Shown one piece after another: positions 2,901 through 53,160 of a stretch of DNA of 64,000 nucleotides. The DNA lies in NCBI GenBank assembly GCA_029204225.1, contig CM055097.1, positions 10,155,184 through 10,219,183 of the forward strand, read 5' to 3'. Source of the stretch: Diphasiastrum complanatum (lineage: Eukaryota; Streptophyta; Lycopodiopsida; Lycopodiales; Lycopodiaceae). A program made the translations under genes and the position numbers. Numbering within the stretch: position 1 is the stretch's first letter; the number at the start of each line of letters is the position of its first letter. The notes under the pieces are model-generated. The model was not told the DNA's origin, ran no database searches, and saw nothing but the letters and a program-made list of their open reading frames with translations.

Positions 2901-3077
2901 GAAATTGCTGTGTTTATGTATTATGTGAACACTTACACAAATTTGGAAGGCTTATTTATCTCGGAAACATAGGTAAGTCTAGAGTATAGCAATTTTAAAT
3001 GAAGTTATTCCTTGTAATGTTTGATAGAATCTAACATTAGCTCGACATATCACCTAGTCTGTCCTTATATTATGCAG

Positions 3078-4976
3078 GCTCGGAGATGATGCTCTATCAA
3101 CAGCAAGTGGCCAAGTGGTTGTAGGCAAAGAAAACAGGTATGTTGTCTCTTTGGCACAGATCTCACAGATTCGAATTGACTGAGGACTTCATACAATCTG
3201 TAAGTTCTTTATATAATTTGGCCACAAAGGCTCATTCAGATTATTCCAATAGCTTGTATCGTTTGTACACTTATAAGTACTTAATAAGTTTTTGGATAGC
3301 TACAGGTGCATCTACTAGAATCTCTATTTAGCTTAGATATCTTTTGATGCATGCAGCTTGCATCGACACATTTTACTTGCCTTAGTTTTGCTGGAATAAT
3401 GTCCATGGAATTAAGGAACTTTTTCTTTGGAGAGCTGGAATTAACTTGTATTCAAACACGCATGTCTTGTTTTCAAGCTAGCAAGGAAATGCATCTCCAT
3501 CCAGTCCATTCTTTGCGTTGCATTTTATCAGGGGGGATTTGTTTGCCTGCAGATATCAGGTTGTATATCGCCTGGTAAATACAATATATGTGCTTGGGAT
3601 CACCAGTACAGACCAAGATGATACTGTAAACAACATTTTTGAATGTGCTGGTATTGTTAATCAAGCTGTAAGGTATGCACTGTCTGGTTGTTGTATTGTA
3701 TTCATATTATTTGCTCTAAATGGACTCTTGTTATATATTGAGGATATGCTGGTGCCACTTTCAAGGAAAAATTAACTTCCGCAAATTGCTATTTGGTACA
3801 TTTTAAATAATCTGTTTATCAAGTGCATGCTGGCCAGTGTCCTTGTGGCAGCTTGCAAGGGCGTGGATGTCACTGCAGATAAACTTCACCGGAAATACAC
3901 AGAGGTATAAGTCAAAATGTTCTACAATATTGAACTCGGTGGTTATCTGTGCTTATTTCTATGTTGTCTGGTGCATGCTTATGACATATCACGATTCACA
4001 TTAACTCTTGATCTTCCTAGGTGTGCTGGAACCTTAGAAACCCGTTCTGACCAAATACAGTCGGAACGTACTTTCCGTTCCGGAATGTACTGGGTAGGGA
4101 CGTGGTACTAAATGAAAAAAAAGGAAGGTATTTACTTACCTGCTGGCCGCGATCTCCCCACTTTACATTTTCTTCTGTAATGTTTGTATTACATTGCCGC
4201 TGAGCTTTCTTTGCAATGTCGATGCTGTTTGGCGTCACATCATGTCCAAATCAAAACCAACATGTAGCCCTCTAAGACATCACAATGTCTAACAAGGAAT
4301 CAAGGGTCACTGAAATAATGGTGTCCTCATACGTTATTTCTGAAAGCCACAATAGTGAGAGTCTTCCTTTTTCCACTCTATGAAGCCAATAGCTGGTATA
4401 CCAAAGGCTGTTCTCAAGTAGATTACGTAATTATCCAGCTGATGCATTTACAGCTTCAAGCCAGCCTGTGCGTTCTTGATGCTGTACCTTTTGTCATAGG
4501 GACAATTTCCAGTGTGTTCCCCCTGACTGACAAAGCTATCAGGTTCTTATCGCATGCAAAGAACCCACTCTAGAGTTCACTACATACCAGAAACTGCTCT
4601 GTTTTTTTGTGCAGCCTTTGCAAACTTTTCCTCACAATTGCAATTGATGTCAGCCTTGCTTACAAAAATGTTAGGTACTTGCAGATCAAATTTTAATGTT
4701 TTTTTGCTTTGTTAAATAAGTACAAATTCTTTTTAATTAATTTTTTTTTTCCCACTGCATGGTACTTCATGACTTGTTTTGTAGATATACATGGCACTTG
4801 ATGTTGTTCTTCACGGAATCAGTGCTGCTCGACTTGCAATCATATTAGCAACAGTTCATGGTGAGAACCTTGCACATATTGTGCTATCTGCTGCTGATGC
4901 AGAGAATCGAGCACGTGGTGCAGACAGCTGGAACCAAGTCAAAAGTCACTCTCTTGAAAGACTTTCCAACATTGAG
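3078..4976 (+). CDS. TML: TML exons for the longin-like N-terminal region
   Basis: There are four exons: 3078-3137, 3553-3672, 3838-3904 and 4785-4976. They encode LGDDALSTASGQVVVGKEN, then RYQVVYRLVNTIYVLGITS and FECAGIVNQAV, then a segment ending KLHRKYTE, then IYMALDVVLHGISAARLAI through RGADSW to LSNIE. Donors are gtatgt, gtatgc, gtataa and gtttgt. Acceptors are tgcag, tgcag, ggccag and tgtag. The pattern is that of the small-subunit-like longin fold shared by adaptor complexes. The last donor at 4977 opens the giant intron. Conventional open frames here run on into intron sequence, so they are not the real coding ends. Confidence 0.88.
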
Positions 4977-5897: not shown

Positions 5898-5948
<51 letters not shown>

Positions 5949-8900
5949 AAGAGTTTATTAATGTCTATCAAGTGCCCGTGGGCACAAAAGACAAAATACA
6001 ATACATACAAAGTAGGAGCAATGTCCATATGAGGACTTATTTCTAGAAACTATCTCTTTATCGGAAGTCAACTAAGTACGAATAAATTTTTGATCACTCA
6101 TTTCTCTCCTTCGATATTGGCCACCTCCCACCCACTCATTCATCTACACTGCCCATGCTTACTCGAGCACCCACGTACACATTTGATCCCATTTGCATGC
6201 CATTGTACCGGCAGTCCCTGGCTTTTCTTTTACACTCCTTTCCTCACGACAGTCCAGTAGACACCAAGGCTGCATTTCTCACTACCTCTCTCCACACAGC
6301 TGCATCACTGACCCTCCCCACAAAACCCCATCCCAAGAAGACTCGACGAACACCTCGACTGTTGCACCCCCCTTGGTACGATACTGAGTGCCGCTCTCTT
6401 CATCAGTCGGTAACCTATTCACGTATCCATGCTCCACACCTGCTTCGATCTTCCCGACGCTCCTACAAGCGTGCTCTCCGCCGTAAGAAACGTTCCTATG
6501 ATGATTCTGAAGGGAAACGTCTTATTGACCTTCTGTTCAGTTCTTCTTCGGGCGCTTTTTGGCGTGAGTTCATTCCTCGATCTCCACCACCCCTCCTGGA
6601 GGACCTCCACATTTGGACTGATTATGCTGCTAGCATGTATACCGTCCCTACCGACTCACCTATCTCCATATCTCCACGACCATCTGAGTTCTCCTTCTTC
6701 ACATTTGACATCGTACTTGCAGCCATTAAGAAGATGAAGTCTCACAAGGCCAGAGATATTGAAGACCTTGAGTCTGAACTCCTTTCCCATGCCTCTGACT
6801 TACTCGCTCCCACCATAGCCACCCTTCTTAATTCCGCAGTTGTTTCTGGTTTCCCATCATCCTGGTGCACTAACATCATCCACCCCATCCATAAGAATGG
6901 TGACCCCATGATTCTGAGTAACTACCGCACCATCATGATTGGGCATGTCCTAGCGAAGCTATATGGTACTATACTTCAGTCGGTTGTGAGCTCAGAGGCG
7001 GAGACTAGGAGACTACATGCTATGGGTCAGGCAGGTTATCGAGCCCATTACTCTACTGCAGATCACATCTTCACATTGCGAGCCGTGATTGAGGAGGCTA
7101 AGCACAGGAGAGAGAGGGTTTATTGTTGTTTTGTGGACTGCAGGAAAGCCTTTGATTCTGTCCCTCGCTCATTGCTCATCCAGAGACTCCGAGACCTAGG
7201 CTTCTCCACTGACATTGTTCTTGTTGTGATGGCACTTATTGAGTGTGTCCTGGGATGTTTCCGGCATAGCAGTGGCATATCCGATCACATTTGGAGCACT
7301 GTTGGGGTGAAGCAGGGTTGTTCCCTCTTACCAGTCCTCTTTGGCTTGTATATTGATGAGTTGGAGAGAGTCATTACACAATGTGGTGGTGCTGGTTGCA
7401 GGCTTGGGGACATCTTGATTGCTATCCTCCTTTATGCCGATGATGTGGTATTGGTCTCACCGACTAGAGAGGGTCTACAGCGACAGTTGGATTGCTTACA
7501 TGAGTTTTGCACCAGATGGGGCCTAGGGGTGAACATTGGGAAGACCAAGGTTATGGTCTTCAACACCTCTCGAGCATTCATGTAGCGACAGGAGCTTACT
7601 TTGGGTTGACAGGTCCTAGAGGTGGTCCCTTCCTACACATACCTGGGGATCCTTTTCTCAGGTCCTACTTTTAGCATAAGACAGGCTGCTGCCACTCGAC
7701 TGGGGAAGGGACATGCCTCCCTTGTTCAGCTAGAGCATTTTTGTTTCCGGAAGTCCATCCAGGATGCTCGTAGTAAGTGTCACGTTTTTGATACCATTGT
7801 CACCCCCACGGCTCTATATGCGGCAGAGGCATGGTGTACGGGTCTCCCCTCTTCACACTGGGCCAGTCTTTCACGACTACAGACCACCATGCTAGCCCGA
7901 TTGATTCGAGCGAAGCCTTCTGTTCCACATGAGATTCTCCTGGCCGAGTTCGCAGTTCCACCTATACAGATCGAGGCAGCTTTCCAACTCATTACCTATA
8001 TACAGAGGATACATGCGTTACCAGAGATAGACAGTCGTTACATACAGATTGCACTATACTCCTCACAGCGCCTTCATGATCAGGGCTACAGATTATCATG
8101 GTTCTCTCAGGCATCTCACCTCCTACTTGATTCATTTGGTATCTCCATCATAGAGCTTCCCTCAGGCACCCATCAGTATATCAGACGATCGCACATATCT
8201 AGAGCGGACTTGGCGTCACCAGTTAGGGGTTAAGCCAGCTTTCTACCGGACCCATTTCTTGGAGCTGGATGCATCAGGGACACCAGTCATGCCACACTAT
8301 TTAGATTCGGGACTATCACATTGTCTCAGATTCACACTGGGATAGCTCAGGGTATCTTCTCATCAGCTAGCTATTGAGACTGGGAGGTTCCATGGTATTC
8401 CTAGAGAGGAGCGTATTTGCCAGTTATGCTCTCTAGGTGAGGTGGAGTTTGAGGAGCACTTTCTCTTCAGATGCCCTGTATACTATGAGATCAGAGAACG
8501 ATATCATTACCTGTTTCGAGACATGCCTACCACTCTACGCTCTCTTCTTGCCTATGAGGACCCACGATGTGTCGCTCTGATGGTACATGAGATGTTCATC
8601 CTACGGAGAGATTTATACGGGACACCCCAACATTTTACCGCACAGCCACTGATCACTTCATTCTTTACTAGGCGGAGATCGCGTGACTTAGCGCATGAGG
8701 ACGAGGATTACGACGATGATGTTGATGATAGCCACTCGCATTCTCATAGAGATCAGAGACAGTGTACTTCTCACCATCACGTTACTACCAGAATCACCAG
8801 ACATCCTATGCAGAGACGTACTACTACACATGCTCATGCTCATAGACGACGCCGGCAGGCTCCAATGTCTTCTCATGCTGTGGCTCACATTACATCCTTT

Positions 8901-9111
8901 TACAGCAGGAGCAGCAGCAGCAACACAACATAGTCTTGACATCTCGATACATATGATTATTATGCACAGACACACTCACATATGTGTCTACTTTAGTTTG
9001 TACTAGATGCTTTCTTTATTATAGTTTTGGAGACGTTTTATACGCTCCCATGGTTACCACACACTTGACATGTACTTCATTAGTCTTGCATGGAAAAGAC
9101 ATTAATAAAGC

Positions 9112-9142
<31 letters not shown>

Positions 9143-12100
9143 ATTTTACTGATTTTATTAGCAAATGTGACATTTTGTTGTTGGCTGAAACCCATGAGTC
9201 TTTATATCATCGTCTTCCACATATGCAAGATTACTCTTGGCATTCTGTTTTTCGCCCATTTGTGAGGGGAAAAACTTGTCATGGATCTGGCGGAGTAGCT
9301 TGTTTATACAGAGCCACCGCAGTTACAATGGTTAAGCAAGATCCATATGCTAGATATATATGGCTACATACTATTGGTTCATTATTGGGATTACCTCAGG
9401 ACATTATATGGCTGTATGTTACTTTGCTCCACAGACTTCGGCGTTTGCTGAATTTGGTGGAGACCCATTTCAGGCACTCTAAGATGATATTGCTGTTTTT
9501 TCTCAGCCGGGCTACATTCTATTAGCAGGAGATTTCAACGCCCGTACTAGCTCCAGACAGACAGAATTTCATGCAGATACTGACTTTCTCCGGCTTCATC
9601 CTCTGGATATGGGACTTGATCGAGTATCACAGGATGCACACACTTCAGTTACATCTTTTGGAGAGCAGTTGATTACTCTTGCAGAGACACATTCTCTTGC
9701 CATCCTGAATGGCCTCACACAGTGGCCTTCCTCATCAGCGTTTACATGTTATCCTCATGGTGGAGGACATAGTGTAGTTGACTACGCCAGATTACACTCC
9801 CCTACAACACTCAAACAACACCAGAAAAAGTATCATAAAGCCACCAGAACAAAGAAGATAACATACCTACGCTCACTCTGCCAAAGGTTGATCGACTCTT
9901 TAGATTCCCCTTCCTCCTCCTTTTTCTGGAAACATTTCACCAGATCCTCTTCGACTTTGGCCCCCATAGCAACCGAATTCTGGGTCAAATATGCCACAAA
10001 ACTTTATACCCTAGACTCCCCTCCTACCTTACTCTCACCACGACCTGCCCGCTGCACGCTTTTTACTCCACACATGGTTGAAAATGCCATTAACCATGCC
10101 AAACTTCATAAGGCCACTAACTATGATTCTCTAAACGTGGATTTTCTAAAACCTGTAGCACATCTTTCTCACCCTCTATTGCTCACGCTTTTAACACCGC
10201 TGTGACCTCTGGTTTTCCTACCGCATGGTGTACTAATTTTCTTCATCCCATCCTCAAGGCAGGTGATCCCATGAATGTAGAAAACTATCGTACTATTATG
10301 ATTGGTCACACTTTGTCTAAGATTTATGGCTCCATTTTACAGACGGTTACTGGATCTTTTGCTGAGACTGAGGATTTACATGCTATGGGTCAGGCTGGGT
10401 TCAGACCAGGATACTCTACCTCAGATCAGATTTTCATTTTGAGATGCATCATTGAGGAGGCACAACATCAGAGACAGAGAGTTTATTGTTGCTTTGTGGA
10501 CTTCCGCAAAGCTTTTGACTCAGTTCCGAGACATCTCCTTTTCCAGAGATTATCTTCACTTGGCTTCACAGACGAGACTATTGCCGCGATCATTACTTTA
10601 TATGAGCGAGTTTGGGCGCAGTTCAAGGACGGTAGTGGTTGGTCTCAGCTGATCCACTCTACCATTGGAGTGAAGCAGGGCTGCCCCTTATCTCCTACTC
10701 TCTTTGCACTATATATTGATGACCTCGAGCGGATTATTTGAGAGGAAGGTGGAGAGGGCTGTCCCTTAGCAGATATTATTATCCCCATTCTCCTATATCG
10801 GAGCTACATACGTACTATATAGTCACAGCCTAACCTTGATAAGGTCAAGATACATTTCTATGGCACACATCTACTACGGTTGGTTACTATAGGTACTCCT
10901 ATCCTTCCAGCATATCTTACACAGCCATTATCTTTTGGTCTGAGGGACAGCTTCGAGTCTCTTCTCATCAGCTAGCTATCGAGATAGGTAGATACACGGA
11001 CACTCCCAGATTGCAGAGGATATGTCAGCTTTGTTCCCTTCATGAGGTGGAGGATGAGTTCCATTTCATCTTTCACTGTCCAGTATATTATGAGATCAGG
11101 GGGTGATACCACTGTTTATACATAGATACTCCTCTCACGTTGCGATCCTTCCTCAAGTATCCAGACTCCAGATGTGTAGGTCTTCTTTTGAGAGAGATGT
11201 ATACTCTACGAGCTTCACTTCTACCTACCACAGATATGGATCACAGCTAGGCTCATATTACCCAGTTTTTCCAGAAGCGAGACAGGGAGGATATTTTCGT
11301 TGTGGATTTTGAAGCCCCCATTTGGAGATCGAAGACACAGAGAGTCTCACATACTTCTGCTAGATCCAGGACCACCAGATCTTCACGGGCTTCCCGCCAG
11401 TCTACAACACGCTCCACTACTACTATCACTCATTATTTCCAGCTTGCTCGTAGCTAGTCTCCTCCACAGAGCAGGTGGTTAAGCTCTTGCATCGTATCCT
11501 CGCAAGCTGGTGGTCAAGTTTTGATACTTCTTCTTAGAGATAGAGAGATAGATATGCTAGTTTCTTTTCTTTTTACTAGTAAATAAGTCCGTATGCGGGC
11601 AATGCTCCTCACTTTTTGTACTCTCTTTTGTCTTATGTACCTTTGGGTAACCAAAAGACGTTAATAATTATAATTTTGATTCTAATTCTCTCTCTCTCTC
11701 TCTCTCTCTCCCTCTCCCGCTACTGATGTGGCAGCGCTGCCTGCCACATCAGCAGTGCTGCCATTGGAGGGGGCAGCACTACCTGCCACGCAGGCAGCCC
11801 TGCAAACGGCACCCTCCCTGTCTGCTGCTGCCTCTGATGGATCTGGGCCTGCTCCTCTTCTCCCCACTCCTATCATCTATGTTGCTGCTACCATCTCTTC
11901 TTCCCTCCAAGAATCACAACCTACAGCAAATATTCCATATAAACCCTCCAATCAATTGAACTTTTCAGGCAGATTTCCAATATGGGATTCCGTGTACAGA
12001 CCTAAGACTAGATCAGCTAGTGGTCGTAGATCCGGAGGTGTTGCATGCCTTTACAGGGAGTCTCTTCACCCGAGCATCGAGTTCATCAGACATGATGAGC

Positions 12101-12941
12101 ATGCACGTTATATTTGGATTCGTATTGTTGGATAGGATATTGGTTTGGACAGGGACATCTTTGTGGCAGCATGTTATTTTCCTCCAGAGTCTTCACCCTA
12201 CCTTGATCTATCATTGGATATTGTCAGATTCTCAGAGCGAGGCCATAATTTCCTCACTAGGGATTTAATGCCCGAACCTCCTCACGACAGTCAGAGTTTT
12301 ATGACACCACCGACTAGCTCCGCGTTCATGCCCTCAACAGTGATGATATGGGAGTTACCAAGATTTCAGAGGACAGCTTGGGACCTATTACCCCCTATGG
12401 TGAGCATTTATTGCAGTTTGGAAAGGCCCATGAGTTAGCCATTTATAATGGCCTAACTTGCTGGCCAGATTTAGGCAGATATAGTTGTCATCCCCACAGT
12501 GGCGGACATAGTGTCATTGAACCTCTCATCTTTGATTTTCATATCTCTCCCACCACCCTCTCTGATCATTCTTTTCTTTCCTTCGCTATTGGTCGCCTCC
12601 CACCTCCCCAATCATTTTTCCATCCCGTGATTACCCGTGCACCCAAATATACATTTAGCTCTCTATATGTGCCAATCTACCAGGAGTCTTTGGCCTCCTT
12701 ACTCCACTCCTTTCCCCATGACAATACAGTCGAGACACAAGCTGCCTTCCTTACCACCTCTCTCCATAGCTTCTCTAGCCTTTCCGGTTTCATATATCAT
12801 CACATTTATTTCAGTTCATAGTATTTAGATATGTTATTTTTGTTACTATTTCGGAGATTCATACGCTCCCATTGCTACCACATACTTGACATGTACATTT
12901 ACTAGTCTTATATGCCTTTTGGCATGGAAAAGACATTAATA

Positions 12942-13031
<90 letters not shown>

Positions 13032-16000
13032 CGACCTTCAAACTTCACCTTTTCACCCCTGACTTGGTTCGGGCAGTAATCAAAAAGCTAAAAACCCACC
13101 GCACCAGGGATCTGAGCTACTGATTCACGCCCCCAATACCCTTGCCCCTACATTATCCACTCTCCTTAACCATGCTGTTGTTGAGGGCTTCCCATCCTCT
13201 TGGTGCACCAACATCATACATCCTATCCACAAAAATGGTGACCCCATGGTACCTGGTAATTACCGCACTATTATGATTGGGCACATTCTCGCGAAGTTAT
13301 ATGGCACCATCCTCCAGTCTGCAGTTAGCTCAGAGGCAGAGTCCAGGAGATTACATGCTTTGGGTCAGGCAGGGTTCCGCGCTCATTATTCCACTACAGA
13401 TCACATGTTCACAGTTCGAGCCCTTATTGAGGAAGGTAGACACAGGAGAGAAAAGGTTTACTGTTGTTTTGTGGACTTCAGGAAAGCCTTTGATTCTCTA
13501 AGTCCCAATTCAGATGCCCAATCTACAATGCGATCAAAGGAATACATCGCTGCCTAGCCGTCATGGCTCTCTATGAGAGGGTCTTGGGCTGCTTTCGTCA
13601 TGGTAGTGGCATCTCTGAGAAAATCTAGAGTACTATTGGGGTTAAGCAAGGATGCTCTCTCTCACCAGTTCTCTTTGGGTTATATATTGACGAGCTAGAG
13701 CAGGTCGTTTCTCAGTGTGATGGGGACGGTTGCCGGCTTGGGGACATTCTGATTGCCATCCTTCTCTATGCGGATGATGAAGAAGAAGAAGAAGAAGAAG
13801 AAGAAGAAGAAGAAGAAGCTTTTCCATGCCAAAATGCATATAAGACAGATAAAAATGCTTATCAAGTATGTGGTAACAGTGGGAGCGTATATAAACGTCT
13901 CCATAAAGAACTATGCATATAAGAAACAATATAATTAAATACTACAAACCGTCAAAAAATGACAGCATAATAAATGCTAGATGTAAATTTATATCATCTG
14001 CCATTGCTGCTGAAAAAGGATGTGATACGAGCTATAGCATGAGGTAATATTGGTCGTCGTTGACGTCGACTAGGAGGGCGAGAGCTGTGTGTCCTCATGA
14101 TAGGACGGGTAGAGCGAGCTGCAGCATGACTATGGGTGGTGCACTGCATCTGATATCTGTGAGGTGGTGCATCGTCATCATCATCAAACTCAGTGTCTCG
14201 GCGTGGTCGTCTCCTAGAGAAAAATGAGGTAATTTGAGCCTAAGAGCTGGGATGTGGCTGATGAGCTGACTGGTACATACCATGTCGTAGCAGGAGCATC
14301 TCCCATATCATAAGTGCAACACAGCAAGGGTCCTCATATGCAATGAGCTGTCGAAGTGTCGCAGGCATGTCTCGGAATAGGCAGTGGTATCTCCCTCTGA
14401 TCTCATAATATATAGGGCATATGAAGATGAAGTGCTCCTCAGACTCCACCTCACACAAAGAGCATTGCTGGCATAATCTCTCCTCCCTAAGGGTACCCTG
14501 GAATCTCCCAATCTCAATAGCCAAATGATGTGATAATACTCTGAACTGACCCGAAGTGAAGCGGAAACTGTGTAGTAATCCTAAAGTCAAATATCGGGGT
14601 AGGATTGGAAACCCATCGGTATCCTGCTCATAGAAGTGAACCAGGTAGTAATCGGGCTTAACCCCCAACTGACGTCGCCAAGTAGATCAAGGGATGCTCT
14701 GTATAAGAACCGTCTAATGTACTGGTGTGTACCGTGATAGTGATACCAAATGACTCCATGAGGGAGTGTGATGCCTGAGAAAACCATGACAATCGGTAAC
14801 CTTGAGCCTGAAGATGGTGGGAGGACGTAAGGGCAATCCGTGTATATCTCTGCTCTGTATCAGGAAATGCCTGAACCCTTTGGATGTAGGTGATAAGCTG
14901 AAAGGCCACCTCTATCTGGATAGGAGGGGTGGCAAACTTAGCAAGAATGATCTCATGGGGAACAAAGGGCTTTGCCCGAATCATGCGAGCTAACATGGTG
15001 GTCTGCAACTGTGGAATGCTGGCCCAATGTGAGGAGGAAAGGCCTGTACACCATATCTTTGCTGCACACAAGGCTGAAGGAGTGACAATGGTGTCAAAGT
15101 CTACACTTACTCGGGGCATCTCGAATGGACTTACGGAAACAAAACCTCTCCAACTGAACAAGGGAAGAGTGACCCTTCTTGAGTGTGGAAGTAACACCTG
15201 TCTCATACTGAACGTAGGACTAGTGAAGAGCACACCCAGGTAAGTGTATGAAGGAACCACATCTAGAGGCTATCCATCAAAAGTAAGCTCCTGTCATTGC
15301 ATGAAAGCCCAAGAAGTGTTGAAGACCATGACTTTGGTCTTCGAAATGTTCACCCCTAAACCCCAACGGGTACAAAAAGTATGTAAGCAATCCAACTGTC
15401 TCTGTAAACCCTCTCTGGTACGAGAGACTTGTTCCACATCATCCGTGTAGAGGAGGATAGCAATCAAAATATCACCAAGTCTACAACAGTCACCGCCACA
15501 TTGAGAAATGACCCTCTCCAACTCATCAATGTATAGTCCAAAGAGAACCGGTGAAAGAGAGCACCCCTGCTTAACCCCTATAGTACTCCAGATCAGCTCA
15601 GAAATACCACTGCTATGTCGAAAACAACCCAATACTCTCTTGTAGAGAACCATGACAGCTAGAATAATATGCGTCGAGAAGCCCAGATCACGAAGTCTCT
15701 GAATGAGCAAGGAGCATGGGACAGAGTTGAAGGCTTTCCTGAAGTCCACAAAACAACAGTAAACCTTTTCCCTCCTGTGCTTAGCTTTCTCGATAAGAGC
15801 TCGAAGGGTGAAGACATGATCAGACTGTGGAGATTTTTCACTACAAATCTCTCCTTGTTATAGCGCCCTACCAGCTGCTCTTGCATTGCAATGTTTATAC
15901 GACAAGAAACTCATGGCTACATTGCTTTTGTTATGTCTCACCTACATTGATTTAGCGATAGGTTATGCTTAGTTTATGTATCATTTTTTATTGTTTTTAC

Positions 16001-18409
16001 CACTGATTGAAGTGCTGGATCATAGCTTGTAAGAATGATGGAATGTCTTTAAAAAAACAACCCTCTTTGCTTGCTAGCGATGGACTGTAGGGTCATTTTT
16101 ACTCTTGAAATATGTATCTTTACATGCCAGATGAGCAATTATGAACTACAAGTTTGATTGGGCTCAAAAAACGGGATTGATTACTTGCGATGGACTGTAG
16201 GGATCAAAATGCCATTTTTTTTATTGCATTTTGGTTGTTTCATCATAAAATAGGGCGCTCTCTTGCTGTCTAGGCAGCGACCAGTTCCTTACATAAATTG
16301 TGATGGTATCATTTCCATAATAATGAAGTCGTTTGCTTCCGTAAAGCTTTATCCTTTGGTAAAATAACAATACATTTGCCTTAAGTGTTCATCTCTTCAT
16401 TGACTATGTAGCATTCTTGTGTGAGGATCTGCCTATTCTCCGATTCTTACCTACGACAAAAAACTTCATTCAGTTCAATTCAATTTCAAACCATATATTG
16501 AAAAGAGTCAATACAGGTATGCTATTTGACTATGCCTTGAAGTATAAGGTAAACGTTAATATGCAAGACTCGTGCTTTGATAGATGAGGAGGCTTATGCT
16601 TTATGACTACGATTCGAAGTTAAGGTTGTTCGACGGAAAATAATGAGGACATAATGTATTGCTTTTTCTTAAAGAAAACACACATTGTGTGGGAATAGCA
16701 TGGTATCTTCTCAAAATAATACGTCGACACTCATCCAAGTATGCTTTATGAATGCATTCGGGTTACGCATAAGCCATGAACATTGTGTATACTATGTGTG
16801 ACAATCTAATCGTTTAGGAAGATGACATATCCTTTAAATGATGGTTCTTCCTAACCTATGGGAACGTTGATGTATGTACATGATATCATAACACATACAT
16901 GACCATAAAAGTACCCTTTCAAACTTTGAAAAGATAACTAGGTTTGCTTATTTATGACAAACCATGAAAGTTCTACCCTAAACCTTTTATTAGTATACAT
17001 ACCCAACTCCAAAATTGGGGTTTTTCCGAAAACGTTCCTAGACAGCATGGATATGTGTAAGATACGAGATTTTTTATATAAGGATTAGTATGGCATGGAT
17101 TTGCCCTAATACCTTGGTAAAAATTTTTTGCATTCCCTAATGAGTTGTAATGAAACCGATCCCTAACGTGATTCGACCTACCATGGACTGACTTGGACGT
17201 TCTTGGAAAGCATGGATATGCTCAGGCGCAATATAGCGATACACAACCAATTTTGTGTAAGAGGATTTGTATGGCACGGATGTGCCCTAATACCTTTGCA
17301 CCGCTCAACCATGGTAGTAACTTACTTTGCCCTTTAGGTGTCTGAACCATCACATTAGGTTTTTGATGGGATACGACTGGAAAGCATGGATATGCTCAGG
17401 AGTATTGACAGTAGTGTGTGACTTACCTTTCTAGGCAAGGTTCACATGGGTTAGAATGGTATGGATTTGCCCTAACACCAGCACATGTGTCTACACCAGA
17501 CCTTTTAGCTATATTGAGATATATATGGTTAAAACTTTACATACATTGTCTAAATACGATTTTAAATGATATGGCCCAATTGGCCACATACTGATCAGCA
17601 TGGCATAAGCCTGATACGGTGATATTAGGGCTTTTGGCCTATCGCTTAGTAACTTACACTGTATGGGAAGACTAGACTATGATTTACGAATGCTATTTAT
17701 GTTGTCAAGTATTATAGCTTCTTTTGGACATGGATAACAATTGACGTTCAACTATGACACCTGTCTTCCCCACTGTACTAACTCGTGCGGTTTTGTGTTG
17801 TGGGATGGTGGCAGGTATCAACTGGATGTCTTGAAACTGGTTATGCTTTATGGTGCTTTTTTAAGTACTGTATGAACTTTTCAGCTTTATTTCTGAGTTC
17901 CAGCGGATCGCGATCCGCTGGAAAAACGATCCGGGACCAGAAACTGTCCCGGATCGCAAAACAATTTGCAATTTTTTTTTTAATTGTGGAGGGATCCCCA
18001 CAACTAGTTGCAATAAATGACCAATGAATAGCAGCAGAAATATTGAAGCAGATACAAATGAAATGATTAGCCAATGTTATATCTGCAAATCCGTATCTGC
18101 AAAAACAATTTGCTTCAATATCTGATTGAAGTGACTAGCAGATATTGGGGATTAACTATCTGAAATCAAGCAATAGAACTGCTCTTTTGAAATCCTTTCA
18201 CATGATACCCATATTGGCAGGTTTGAAAAAAAAAACAAAAAAATTTTGCGTTCCAAGAAACCCTTATGGGAAATCCCAGATCACGTTCCGGAACGCGATC
18301 CGGAACGCGTTCCGGATCGTGGCCTGCATCTTTGCTTTGTTTTACATTGTTGGGTTATGAATAAAGGCTTCATTGTCTTGCTTTGTCAAGAGGAACTATG
18401 TGATATTTC

Positions 18410-18448
<39 letters not shown>

Positions 18449-21400
18449 GCTCATTCCATGATCACATCACCGCTTTGATTAATAGAAGGTGAGTAGTTCA
18501 AACTGGTGGGCGAGACCATTGATTTAGCACTATTGTGATATAGGGGTTACAGGATACCCAGAAACATTAATGATCAAGATATAATAAATCGATTTGGTAA
18601 TGTTTTTTAATTTGGGTTTTCAGAATGTGCCGGTATCTTGTATTAAATAGTGGTGATGGATTTTTTGGTCACACATGTGTAGTATTCCTGCAAATCCATT
18701 TGCCTCTCTTTGTGATGATTGTTCAGCTAGATTAAATTAGTACACAGTTATAAGTAGATCGGTATGAAGGATCAATTAAAAGGTGTAACCTTCATCGTTC
18801 AGTAAGTTAGCTCAGGTACAGACTCCAGAGTCGATTACTTATCAATTGGATGTTTCCAGCTGCATTTCTTGGTTTTGAAAGGGTTACTAGAAATTGTTGA
18901 GATCTCCTTTGATTCTAGGATTTTATGAGCAAGAAATGGGTTCAGTGATAAATCAATGGATTGAAATTCGATCAATTGTATTGTAGACATTCATGTGGAT
19001 GTTTTCCACCAGTGTTGTAAGTTTGATCAGATTTAGGATCAGTACTCTTTCGCATATGGTAAATAGTCATGTGGATGGTCTCCACTAGCGTTGATTGTTT
19101 ACAGTCTCGATTAATGAGTGGTGTGAGTAGGAAGTTCACTGATACTAATTCATGGCCTTCAGGTACAGTTCTCATATGCTTATGTGTGTGATTCTGTGTG
19201 ATTAATCATTTTGGATAGCGGTTAGAGAATACCGGATCTAGAGATTGCAATGCAAGTGGATATCCCGTAATCTCTAGTTTTAGATGGATGTTTTGCATAT
19301 CCAGAGACATAACTTGATAGAGTAGTTGAAGGACACAAATACAGTTTCCAATGAGACTTTGAGTTATCTATTGTATTGTAGATGAGAGGTTAAGTCTATT
19401 TAGAGGTCTAAGCTTGTACTTCTTCATGGGGATTCTATCCAGATTGGACCTTCATGTAGTGGATGATTCTAGAAGAGATCAACATATATCAAAGTGAAGA
19501 TCAAATTATCTTCTAAACGACAATTGCTCCTCGTACATCTCTAACCACCGCCTCCAACTCATCAATATAGAGACCAACTAGTGTAGGTGAAAATGGACAT
19601 CGCTGCCTAACGCCTGTAGTATTGGAGATCAACTCAAGCACACAATAACATGGTGAGAGGGTTTGAGTTTGATACAGACAAAAACCTAGAAAGATGTGAA
19701 GCTTGCGTGTATGGAAAACAACACAAAAGACCTTTCCCAAAAACTGTAATGAGTATGAGCAAGGAACCACTGGAGCTGGTACACTCTGATGTGTGTGGGC
19801 CCATGGAGGTGACTTCAATAGGTGGGTCCAAATATTTTGTAACATTCATAGACGATTTTACCAGGAGAGTCCATGTGGACCTGATCAAGCAAAAGAGCCA
19901 AGTCTTGGAATGTTTCAAAAAGTTCAAGGAAATGGCTGAAGTACAGACATCTATGAAAATTAGGAGATTCAGATGTGATAATGGAGGTGAGTTCCGAAGT
20001 AAGGAGTTTGATAACTTTTGTTCTTCATATGGAGTAAAAAGGGAATTTACAGTGCCATATACCCCTGAGCAGAATGGGATTGCTGAACGAAAGAATCGGA
20101 CGATCATGGAGCTAGCCCGATGTATGCTTCATGACAGAGATATCTCAAAAGCTTTATGTGCAGAAGCGGTCAGTACAGCAGTTTATGTGATGAATAGGTC
20201 GCCAACTAGGGCCATTAAAGGAAAAACTCCTAATGAACTATGGTTCGGTGTCAAACCCACTGTAGAACACTTAAGGGTTTTTGGCTGCCTGCCGTATGCA
20301 CACATTCCAAAGATCAATAGGAAGAAACTTGATGCCAAAGGTACTAAATGCATTTTTGTGGGGTATGCTGATTCTGCAATAGCATTTAAATTCTATAATC
20401 CTGCCACAAACAATTTTTTGTCTCTAGAGATGTGATATTTGATGAAAATAACAAGTACATTCCCCATGAGACACAACCTGAACAGTCTGGGAGCTTAGGT
20501 ACACCCATGATTATCGTTACTAATGCACCAACGAAAATCCCAAATTTGAGTAATAATGATAGAGACACAGGTGTTGGGACAGAGGAGGCTGTGCATTATG
20601 AGCAAGTCCAAGAGGAAGAAATGAATAATGATGGAACAATCCAGGAGTGTGTATCAGAATTGAGAAGGTCTGATAGACTTCGTAGGATGCCCAACAAATT
20701 TCAAGACATGGTACTGGTGACGGAAGATAGAGCAATTGAACCAATTTCTTACAGAGATGCACAACGTAGCCGTGATTGGGACATGTGGAAGAAGGCCATG
20801 ACAGATGAGATGAGTTCAATGGCTGCAAATAATGCATGGGATCTTGTGAGCCTGCCAGTGGACAGGAGGGCAATTGGCTGTAGATGGATCTACAAAATCA
20901 AGTACAATGCGGCAGGAGAGGTGGAAAGACATAAAGCACGCTTGGTGGCCAAAGGCTTTTCGCAGATAGAGGGGGTGGATAATGCAATTGGATGTCAAAA
21001 CTGAATGGTGAACTACATGAGGATATATACATGCAGCAACCGGAGGGATTTAATGGAGGAGAGAATCTTGTATGCAAATTGAGAAAGGCCTTATATGGGT
21101 TGAGGCAAGCGTCACGTGTTTGGTATGAGAGAATAGAATCCTTCCTAACTGCCAAGGGCTTTAGTAAATGCAAGTCAGACTCTAGCATATTTTACAAGAG
21201 AGATGGGACATCTGTAATTGTTATAGCAATATACGTTGATGACATAATATTGATAGGTAATCATCTCAAGATGCTAGACAATTTCAAGAAAGAATTGAAG
21301 GCTGAATTTGAAATGAAGGACATGGGAGATCTCCATTATTGTTTGGGCATTCAAATCAGGAGAGACGGTGTGAACAGGACAATGTGGTTGTCACAGGAAA

Positions 21401-34101: not shown

Positions 34102-34283
<182 letters not shown>

Positions 34284-39383: not shown

Positions 39384-39437
<54 letters not shown>
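39384..39437. repeat. (GA)n microsatellite
   Basis: A GA tract with no recognisable LINE end at either side. Confidence 0.95.

Positions 39438-40485: not shown

Positions 40486-40555
<70 letters not shown>
40486..40555. repeat. (GA)n microsatellite
   Basis: A 70-base GA tract with no recognised element at its flanks. Confidence 0.95.
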
Positions 40556-52223: not shown

Positions 52224-52292
<69 letters not shown>

Positions 52293-53160
52293 TTTCACAT
52301 AGTCCCTCTTGACAAGTCAAGACCAAACCCACCTTAACCTTTTTATTTTATAGCATAACAGGTTAAACAAAGTTGCATAAAGTCTTACAATACAAGGTAC
52401 TATAAAACAAAGCAAGTTTTAGGATACTCAATTATTACATGCCACCATTCTGCAACACAAAATCTCATGAGCTAATACAGAGGGGAAGACAAGTATCATA
52501 GCTGAACATCAGTTGTTATCCATGTCCGAAACAAGAGTCACTACTCTATCAGCATAAATTCAGTTGCATATCATTCGTCCAATCTTCCCAACCAATGTCT
52601 ACTTACTAGCAATACCTTTTGCCCTAAGCATGAAACTGTATCAGGGTAGAAACCATACCGATTAGTTTTAGGGCATAAGCAAGATATGAAATTTCAAGAG
52701 TAACTTTAACATATGTATGAAGCTATCATTTCCTTTCAACAAGTATAAAATAGGTACAACTTAGATATAGCATTAGGTGTTAGGGCAATTCCATGCCATA
52801 TTGACCCATCAAACTCTATGAAGCCTTATTTGAGTCTGAATGCTATGAAGCTTGGGCAAATCCATGTCATTCAAGCTTCCATGCCCAAAACCTATTCACA
52901 AGTCTAGCATACTATCTACTACCATATTTTGTTTACCTAGCAGTTCTACGTCTTGTGATTATATCGTTCTACATTTAAAATGTCAAAGAATTTTAGTTCG
53001 CATTCACTATTTTGTTTAATGGGAGGTAACATATAATCCAACCCTATACTATAATACTTTTCATTTGAATTGGAAGAATAAAACCATCTCTTATATTCGT
53101 ATCCCATTTACAACTTATTCTATAGTAAAAAACCCTAAATCAATGTCTCCATGAGAATAC
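48050..53160. other. AT-rich stretch without recognised gene
   Basis: Small frames such as 49500-49763 have no known motif. The only clear repeat is an (AG)n tract at 52229-52288. Ancient transposon decay is likely but not shown. Confidence 0.5.
52229..52288. repeat. (GA)n microsatellite
   Basis: A 60-base GA tract next to AT-rich DNA with no LINE end adjoining. Confidence 0.95.

Follow-up and report, generated by a model that had tools for sequence, protein, structure and literature searches.

Several LINE copies lie tail to head at one locus of the lycophyte Diphasiastrum complanatum, with TC microsatellites at boundaries between them, which raises the question of whether the element inserts by preference into such repeats. 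A first-pass annotation of the window (the whole stretch of 64,000 nt analysed here) had proposed repeated insertion into TC tracts, with each new tail serving as the next target. Target-specific LINEs in those parts of the literature that were consulted come mostly from animals and protists.

Results

An array of LINE copies connected by TC tracts

The LINE region spans approximately positions 5954–15824 and comprises five copies and a 3′ fragment on the left. Copies 1–4 all lie on the plus strand and follow each other tail to head via TC tracts at 9118–9142, 11687–11717 and 12945–13028; the common direction noted by the first-pass annotation was borne out by blastn and by a 3′-end model. As the annotation had described, these tracts and a further one at 5900–5953 are each located 3′ of a LINE 3′ end. 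The left fragment (about 5954–6075, minus strand) consists of 3′UTR only and was recognised by the 3′-end model (match 6051–5954, E 4.8e-16) and by blastn against the end of copy 2 (73%). Being a minus-strand 3′ end, it has as its tail the tract at 5900–5953, found by the tract search and the 3′-end model, which is (TC)n on its own strand and reads (GA)n on the plus strand, in agreement with the GA-repeat ending reported for it.

Copy 1 (6080–9110, plus strand) is 5′ truncated and retains the C-terminal part of the endonuclease (EN), the reverse transcriptase (RT; RVT_1, E 1e-25), the knuckle and the 3′UTR. Its start, near 6075–6086, is away from TC; there the copy meets the left minus-strand fragment head-to-head, at the side where that fragment is 5′ truncated. 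A (TC)12 tract (9118–9142, plus strand) forms the boundary with copy 2 (9143–11667, plus strand; group B, with EN, gapped RT and 3′UTR), whose LINE homology starts 1–3 nt past 9142, directly after the tract as had been claimed. Copy 2 ends in its own tail of ATTCTA-like units followed by (TC)n (11668–11717, plus strand). Copy 3 (11718–12944, plus strand) contains a Pro/Ala-rich 5′ part, a partial EN and the 3′UTR, the last two being joined by an internal deletion at about 12785/12831. For the proposed junction of copies 2 and 3 the tract was confirmed, while the first stretch of copy 3 alignable to another copy lies 185 nt past it; because these 185 nt form an open Pro/Ala-rich frame that runs on into the endonuclease frame, copy 3 likely starts at TC as well. 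The boundary of copies 3 and 4 is a (CT)42 tract (12945–13028, plus strand), and homology to the RT part that makes up copy 4 (13029–13778, plus strand) begins 2–4 nt past 13028, again as proposed. The inverted copy 5 (13819–15824, minus strand) has a (TTC)13 tail (13779–13818, minus strand) within copy 4 and a 5′ end away from TC. Since copy 1 abuts the left fragment and copy 5 carries its (TTC)n tail inside copy 4, the statement that every junction is at the repeat was too strong.

Aligned stretches of the window copies were 67–85% identical (blastn), which argues that they are separate insertions and not recent tandem duplicates. The 3′-end 17-mer, allowing up to three mismatches, matched four times in the window compared to 0.62 times in shuffled sequences. 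The 3′-end model was built partly from the window's own copy ends, and its match alone is no independent proof; the 3′ ends adjoining TC tracts were also seen, apart from the model, by blastn between copies.

The window also contains a short RT piece from a related LINE (19478–19641, minus strand; tblastn E 6e-7) and a receptor kinase whose best solved-structure matches are plant receptor kinases, which points to a land-plant host. A second repeat (17446–18443, plus strand, and 52229–52809, minus strand; 67% alike) runs straight into (TC)n, with the last 69 bases including the tract being 87% alike, and represents another TC-ended family. At 34103–34280, 39384–39437 and 40486–40554, extended tracts of (TG)n(GA)n or (GA)n have no adjoining LINE end or start and represent unoccupied TC tracts.

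Domains and relatives of the element

An RVT_1 domain was found in two of the five window proteins tested, and the region 9109–9477 gave an Exo_endo_phos match below the cut-off. A copy elsewhere in the genome (L084) encodes an ORF1 of 302 aa and an ORF2 that is open over 1183 aa, the latter with Exo_endo_phos (E 2.5e-14, above the cut-off) and RVT_1 (E 1.6e-33); this one ORF2 protein gave no RNase H match at E values up to 1. With an RT and an N-terminal APE-like endonuclease present, the element is an APE-type non-LTR retrotransposon (LINE), and the group shows no LTR, frequent 5′ truncation and a simple 3′ repeat. Matches to a coiled coil in the L084 ORF1 were weak, and ORF1 had no Pfam family above the cut-off and no useful PDB match, so it is not called L1-type. 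The likely identity is a two-ORF LINE group in which ORF1 would carry a coiled coil and ORF2 carries an APE-type endonuclease, an RT and a CCHC-like knuckle. Comparison to solved structures returned R2 (5.7e-24) and L1 (1.2e-21), matches that do not fix the clade. The element is accordingly grouped by behaviour and is not assigned to Tx1 or R1. The predicted endonuclease structure (mean pLDDT 46.7) was too poor for fold comparison.

Two contigs, L066 and L067, contain relatives whose best segments show 41% and 55% identity; both contigs sit in the genome bin of a cyanobacterium named Trichormus. Trichormus azollae inhabits the fern Azolla, and we take both contigs to be fern DNA; they are probably host fern contigs inside a cyanobacterial bin. 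The Azolla-type relative in L067 has a similar end sequence followed by (TTTC)3, without a TC tract. Relatives of the copy 1 RT were not found in viral contigs; the 17-mer occurred in 65 viral stretches with one match each, none of them followed by (TC)4 within 60 nt, and these matches were attributed to chance. Stretches of the form Q-x-x-I-T-x-F-F (QPLITSFF, QAHITQFF, QRTITNFF) were noted at ORF2 C-termini, namely in copy 1 (about 8641–8675), L084 and L067 (about 3016–3045), and presumably resemble PCNA-binding PIP boxes. A 3′ hairpin with z below −2 was obtained for two of six folded ends (copy 3 and the left fragment) and not for the other four, a weak signal.

TC tracts at 3′ ends across the genome

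The genome to which the window belongs (1.74 Gb) was searched with the 3′-end 17-mer AAAAGACATTAATAAAG, giving 4702 exact occurrences (2314 on the plus and 2388 on the minus strand) compared to 1 + 1 for the reversed pattern used as control. On the plus strand, (TC)4 was found within 12 nt of the 17-mer at 1202 of 2314 sites and at none in the reversed-pattern control; the minus-strand figure is left out, some sites having been counted several times. The sample consisted of 61 of the first 62 listed 17-mer places on contig C1 (that at 17592029, 322 nt from its neighbour, was omitted), sites that cluster and are not fully independent. At 49 of the 61 sites, a run of (TC)5 or more started within 60 nt past the 3′ end (in L082, some 50 nt of unrelated letters came first), whereas (GA)5 was absent within 120 nt (0/61). 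The 3′ side of the survey suggested by the first-pass annotation thus came out in favour of TC. Ordinary poly(A) tails, named there as evidence against the idea, were absent (poly(A)8 within 60 nt, 0/61), and on this point the proposal survives.

The same tails have to be weighed against the possibility that the element itself produces the TC. In this view, RT slippage leaves a short TTTC/TCTC tail that expands to (TC)n after insertion, and arrays arise because new copies favour such pyrimidine tails, ordinary TC microsatellites not being a target. Consistent with this, at least one TTTC unit preceded the TC in 34 of the 49 TC-bearing tails, and TC was often scarce where a tail had at least five TTTC units: 12 of the 61 3′ ends lacked (TC)5, several of them carrying (TTTC)5 tails with almost no TC, in keeping with TC that grows out of tails. 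There is also a precedent in the RTE elements of Lepidoptera, which generate microsatellites according to the consulted part of that study (PMC2887409). Later expansion of short tails could lie behind part of the TC length or, if the element makes the TC, behind most of it. However, two LINE groups with different tails of their own, (TTTC)n in one and TAATTC-like units in the other, both continue into (TC)n; the second type, group B, was seen in L084 (via a further 3′-end scrap), L096, L086-88 and window copy 2. In addition, the TC continued past the tail into (AC)n, like compound microsatellites, at 4 of the 61 sites (L106, L112, L127, L139), which also speaks against a purely element-made tract. 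(TTC)3 was present within 40 nt of four of the 61 3′ ends.

Tail-to-head joins

Another LINE piece began within 15 nt past the tail at 14 of the 61 sites on the same strand and at none (0/61) on the opposite strand. Ten of these joins followed (TC)5 or more, one followed a TTC tail (L083), and in the other three (L101, L118, L135) the preceding TTTC tail held two or three TC units; joins at such TC-poor tails are what element-made TC would lead one to expect.

The same tail-to-head order and orientation would result from template jumping, in which one RT molecule copies successive LINE RNAs in a single event and joins a 3′ tail to a truncated 5′ end, but neighbours come from different groups and are 67–85% identical, and the 5′ TC of copies without a preceding LINE (see below) is left unexplained, which makes this reading highly improbable. 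Long dinucleotide tracts are difficult to assemble and recombine readily, yet it is the least probable explanation of all that unrelated LINE pieces were joined by misassembly or by recombination at such tracts, given that several loci share the arrangement while differing in sequence, that random joining predicts opposite-strand joins too (0/61 seen), and that recombination at TC alone cannot create a border from TC to mid-LINE.

TC tracts at 5′ ends

The 5′ side of the survey was mixed: among 32 5′ ends in view, 10 were at TC, 5 were ambiguous and 17 were off TC, so that non-TC 5′ flanks, the second observation named against the idea, make up a bare majority. When LINE homology had to begin no more than 10 nt from a TC tract (the strict rule), four of the 32 qualified (L084, L089, L146, L148), the other six TC starts being judged from the layout. 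Upstream sequence of up to 7.5 kb was available for 21 copies; of their 5′ ends, eight were at TC, two ambiguous (L095, L098) and 11 off TC; L084 and L089 were the strict cases, while L085, L087, L088, L099 and the second copies of L091 and L093-92 were judged, since 5′UTR/ORF1-like sequence comes first and alignment to other copies begins only 70–640 nt in. A further 20 copies had 1.5 kb upstream, and 11 of their 5′ ends were in view, the other nine copies extending off the stretch; TC was clear in two (L146, L148), probable in three (L141, L151, L155) and absent in six. For comparison, (TC)5 or more ended no more than 6 nt upstream of 1885 of 200,000 random positions (0.94%) and (GA)5 of 371 of 200,000 (0.19%), the background being the fetched DNA and the window, LINE tails included.

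The 17 5′ ends without TC count in favour of element-made TC. By contrast, the single copies L088, L099, L146 and L148 have a 5′ TC tract with DNA on its far side that shows no LINE match, which counts against it. On balance, element-made TC is an unlikely explanation, though clearly better placed than template jumping.

In L085 and L089, another repeat precedes the 5′ TC. This third repeat (L085 2377–2574, L089 5453–5650) is 83% alike between both loci and ends in (TC)n, which is followed by the LINE in L089 and by non-LINE DNA for some 300 nt in L085. Microhomology at TC 5′ junctions was weak (64% pyrimidine in the eight upstream reference bases of 18 junctions, compared to 52–58% in whole references). 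A mid-element 16-mer with (TC)4 within 30 nt upstream was found at six distinct places and was not weighed as evidence. In L091, near-identical flanks of 40–50 nt (about 1136–1195 and 4500–4551) border a stretch of about 3.4 kb that interrupts the LINE and is perhaps an LTR-type insertion.

Discussion

The earlier proposal is partly supported. Its core, TC-directed insertion with tails as the next targets, also holds outside the window, because TC adjoined 49/61 3′ ends compared to 0/61 for GA, same-strand joins numbered 14/61 compared to 0/61, TC followed two tail types and four far flanks were free of LINE. Its strictness did not hold: 17/32 5′ ends were off TC, 12/61 3′ ends had no (TC)5, and the window has its own exceptions, so the TC preference is strong but not absolute. 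We consider it probable that an APE-type LINE group prefers (TC)n tracts, with TC on the coding strand, without requiring TC, and that its tails seed targets.

Arrangement, strand bias and sample frequency were observed directly; for nicking, priming and the order of events, we infer the following course. The endonuclease would nick the GA strand within a TC tract, and the RNA would pair with the GA primer through its pyrimidine-rich 3′ end, made of TTTC, TTC or TAATTC-like units. Slippage at the primer would produce the variable own tail, and synthesis would often halt early, resulting in 5′ truncation. TC would remain 3′ of the new copy and sometimes 5′ of it as well. Each tail would then be a fresh target, and copies of different groups would for this reason chain tail to head. 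Such target-primed insertion into TC fits the strand bias, the common TC after different tails and the TC that flanks certain single copies at either end. Against it stand the 5′ ends off TC, together with five ambiguous ones and only 4/32 under the strict rule, and the L067 relative with its TTTC tail and no TC tract.

Microsatellite targeting is a known behaviour of animal LINEs, which a plant LINE probably shows here. Kibi and Koshi, fish LINEs of the Tx1 group, were reportedly described by Kojima and Fujiwara in 2004 as inserting at (TC)n and (TTC)n, respectively. They resemble the present element as APE-type LINEs at TC (and TTC) microsatellites but have animal hosts and a fixed microsatellite, whereas TC use by the lycophyte element is partial and the comparison is one of behaviour, not RT phylogeny. 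Waldo and Mino, APE-type elements of the R1 clade in arthropods, target dinucleotide or other short repeats; the endonuclease type and the short-repeat target are alike, the repeat units differ, and R1 kinship is not implied for the plant element. Zepp of Chlorella forms telomere nests, and its repeated nesting in its own copies is similar, but it is telomere-linked and does not involve TC tracts.

Microsatellite-specific LINEs also include the (TG)n elements Togen and the HERO families, which, as far as the consulted sections of their description go, share microsatellite targeting but differ by a restriction-like endonuclease and animal hosts (PMC4640811). The RTE elements of Lepidoptera (PMC2887409), judged from the part of the study consulted, likewise have LINE-linked microsatellites, but there the element makes the repeat, while here the repeat is favoured as target. 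Simple 3′ repeats are shared with other LINEs of the green lineage, for which Ohshima (Table 3, PMC3747384) gives (A)n, (TTG)n and (TTGATG)n in plant L1/RTE elements and units such as (CA)n, (CAA)n and (ATT)n in algae; among the plant LINE tails in the consulted part of that table, no entry with a TC or TTTC tail was found. The lycophyte element differs from the flowering-plant L1 clade by the absence of poly(A)8 within 60 nt (0/61 sites) and of RNase H (in the one ORF2 of L084), a domain reported for plant L1 in the consulted part of PMC4640811. From plant RTE it differs by the absence of (TTG)n/(TTGATG)n tails, its own being TTTC, TTC or TAATTC-like, and Zepp is listed with a poly(A) tail (same Table source, PMC3747384).

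Our literature search retrieved no description of a plant LINE that targets microsatellites, which is weak evidence of absence as most subscription journals and Repbase lay outside its reach. Whether diverged LINE groups share one TC target and mutually build it, so that self-propagating tail-to-head nests spread through the 1.7-Gb genome, is in our judgement evenly balanced; if true, land plants may here have yielded their first described LINE lineage with a microsatellite target. A plant genome with thousands of such 3′ ends would make it possible to test directly how an APE endonuclease gains a microsatellite preference, and whether dinucleotide repeats are seeded and enlarged by LINE tails.
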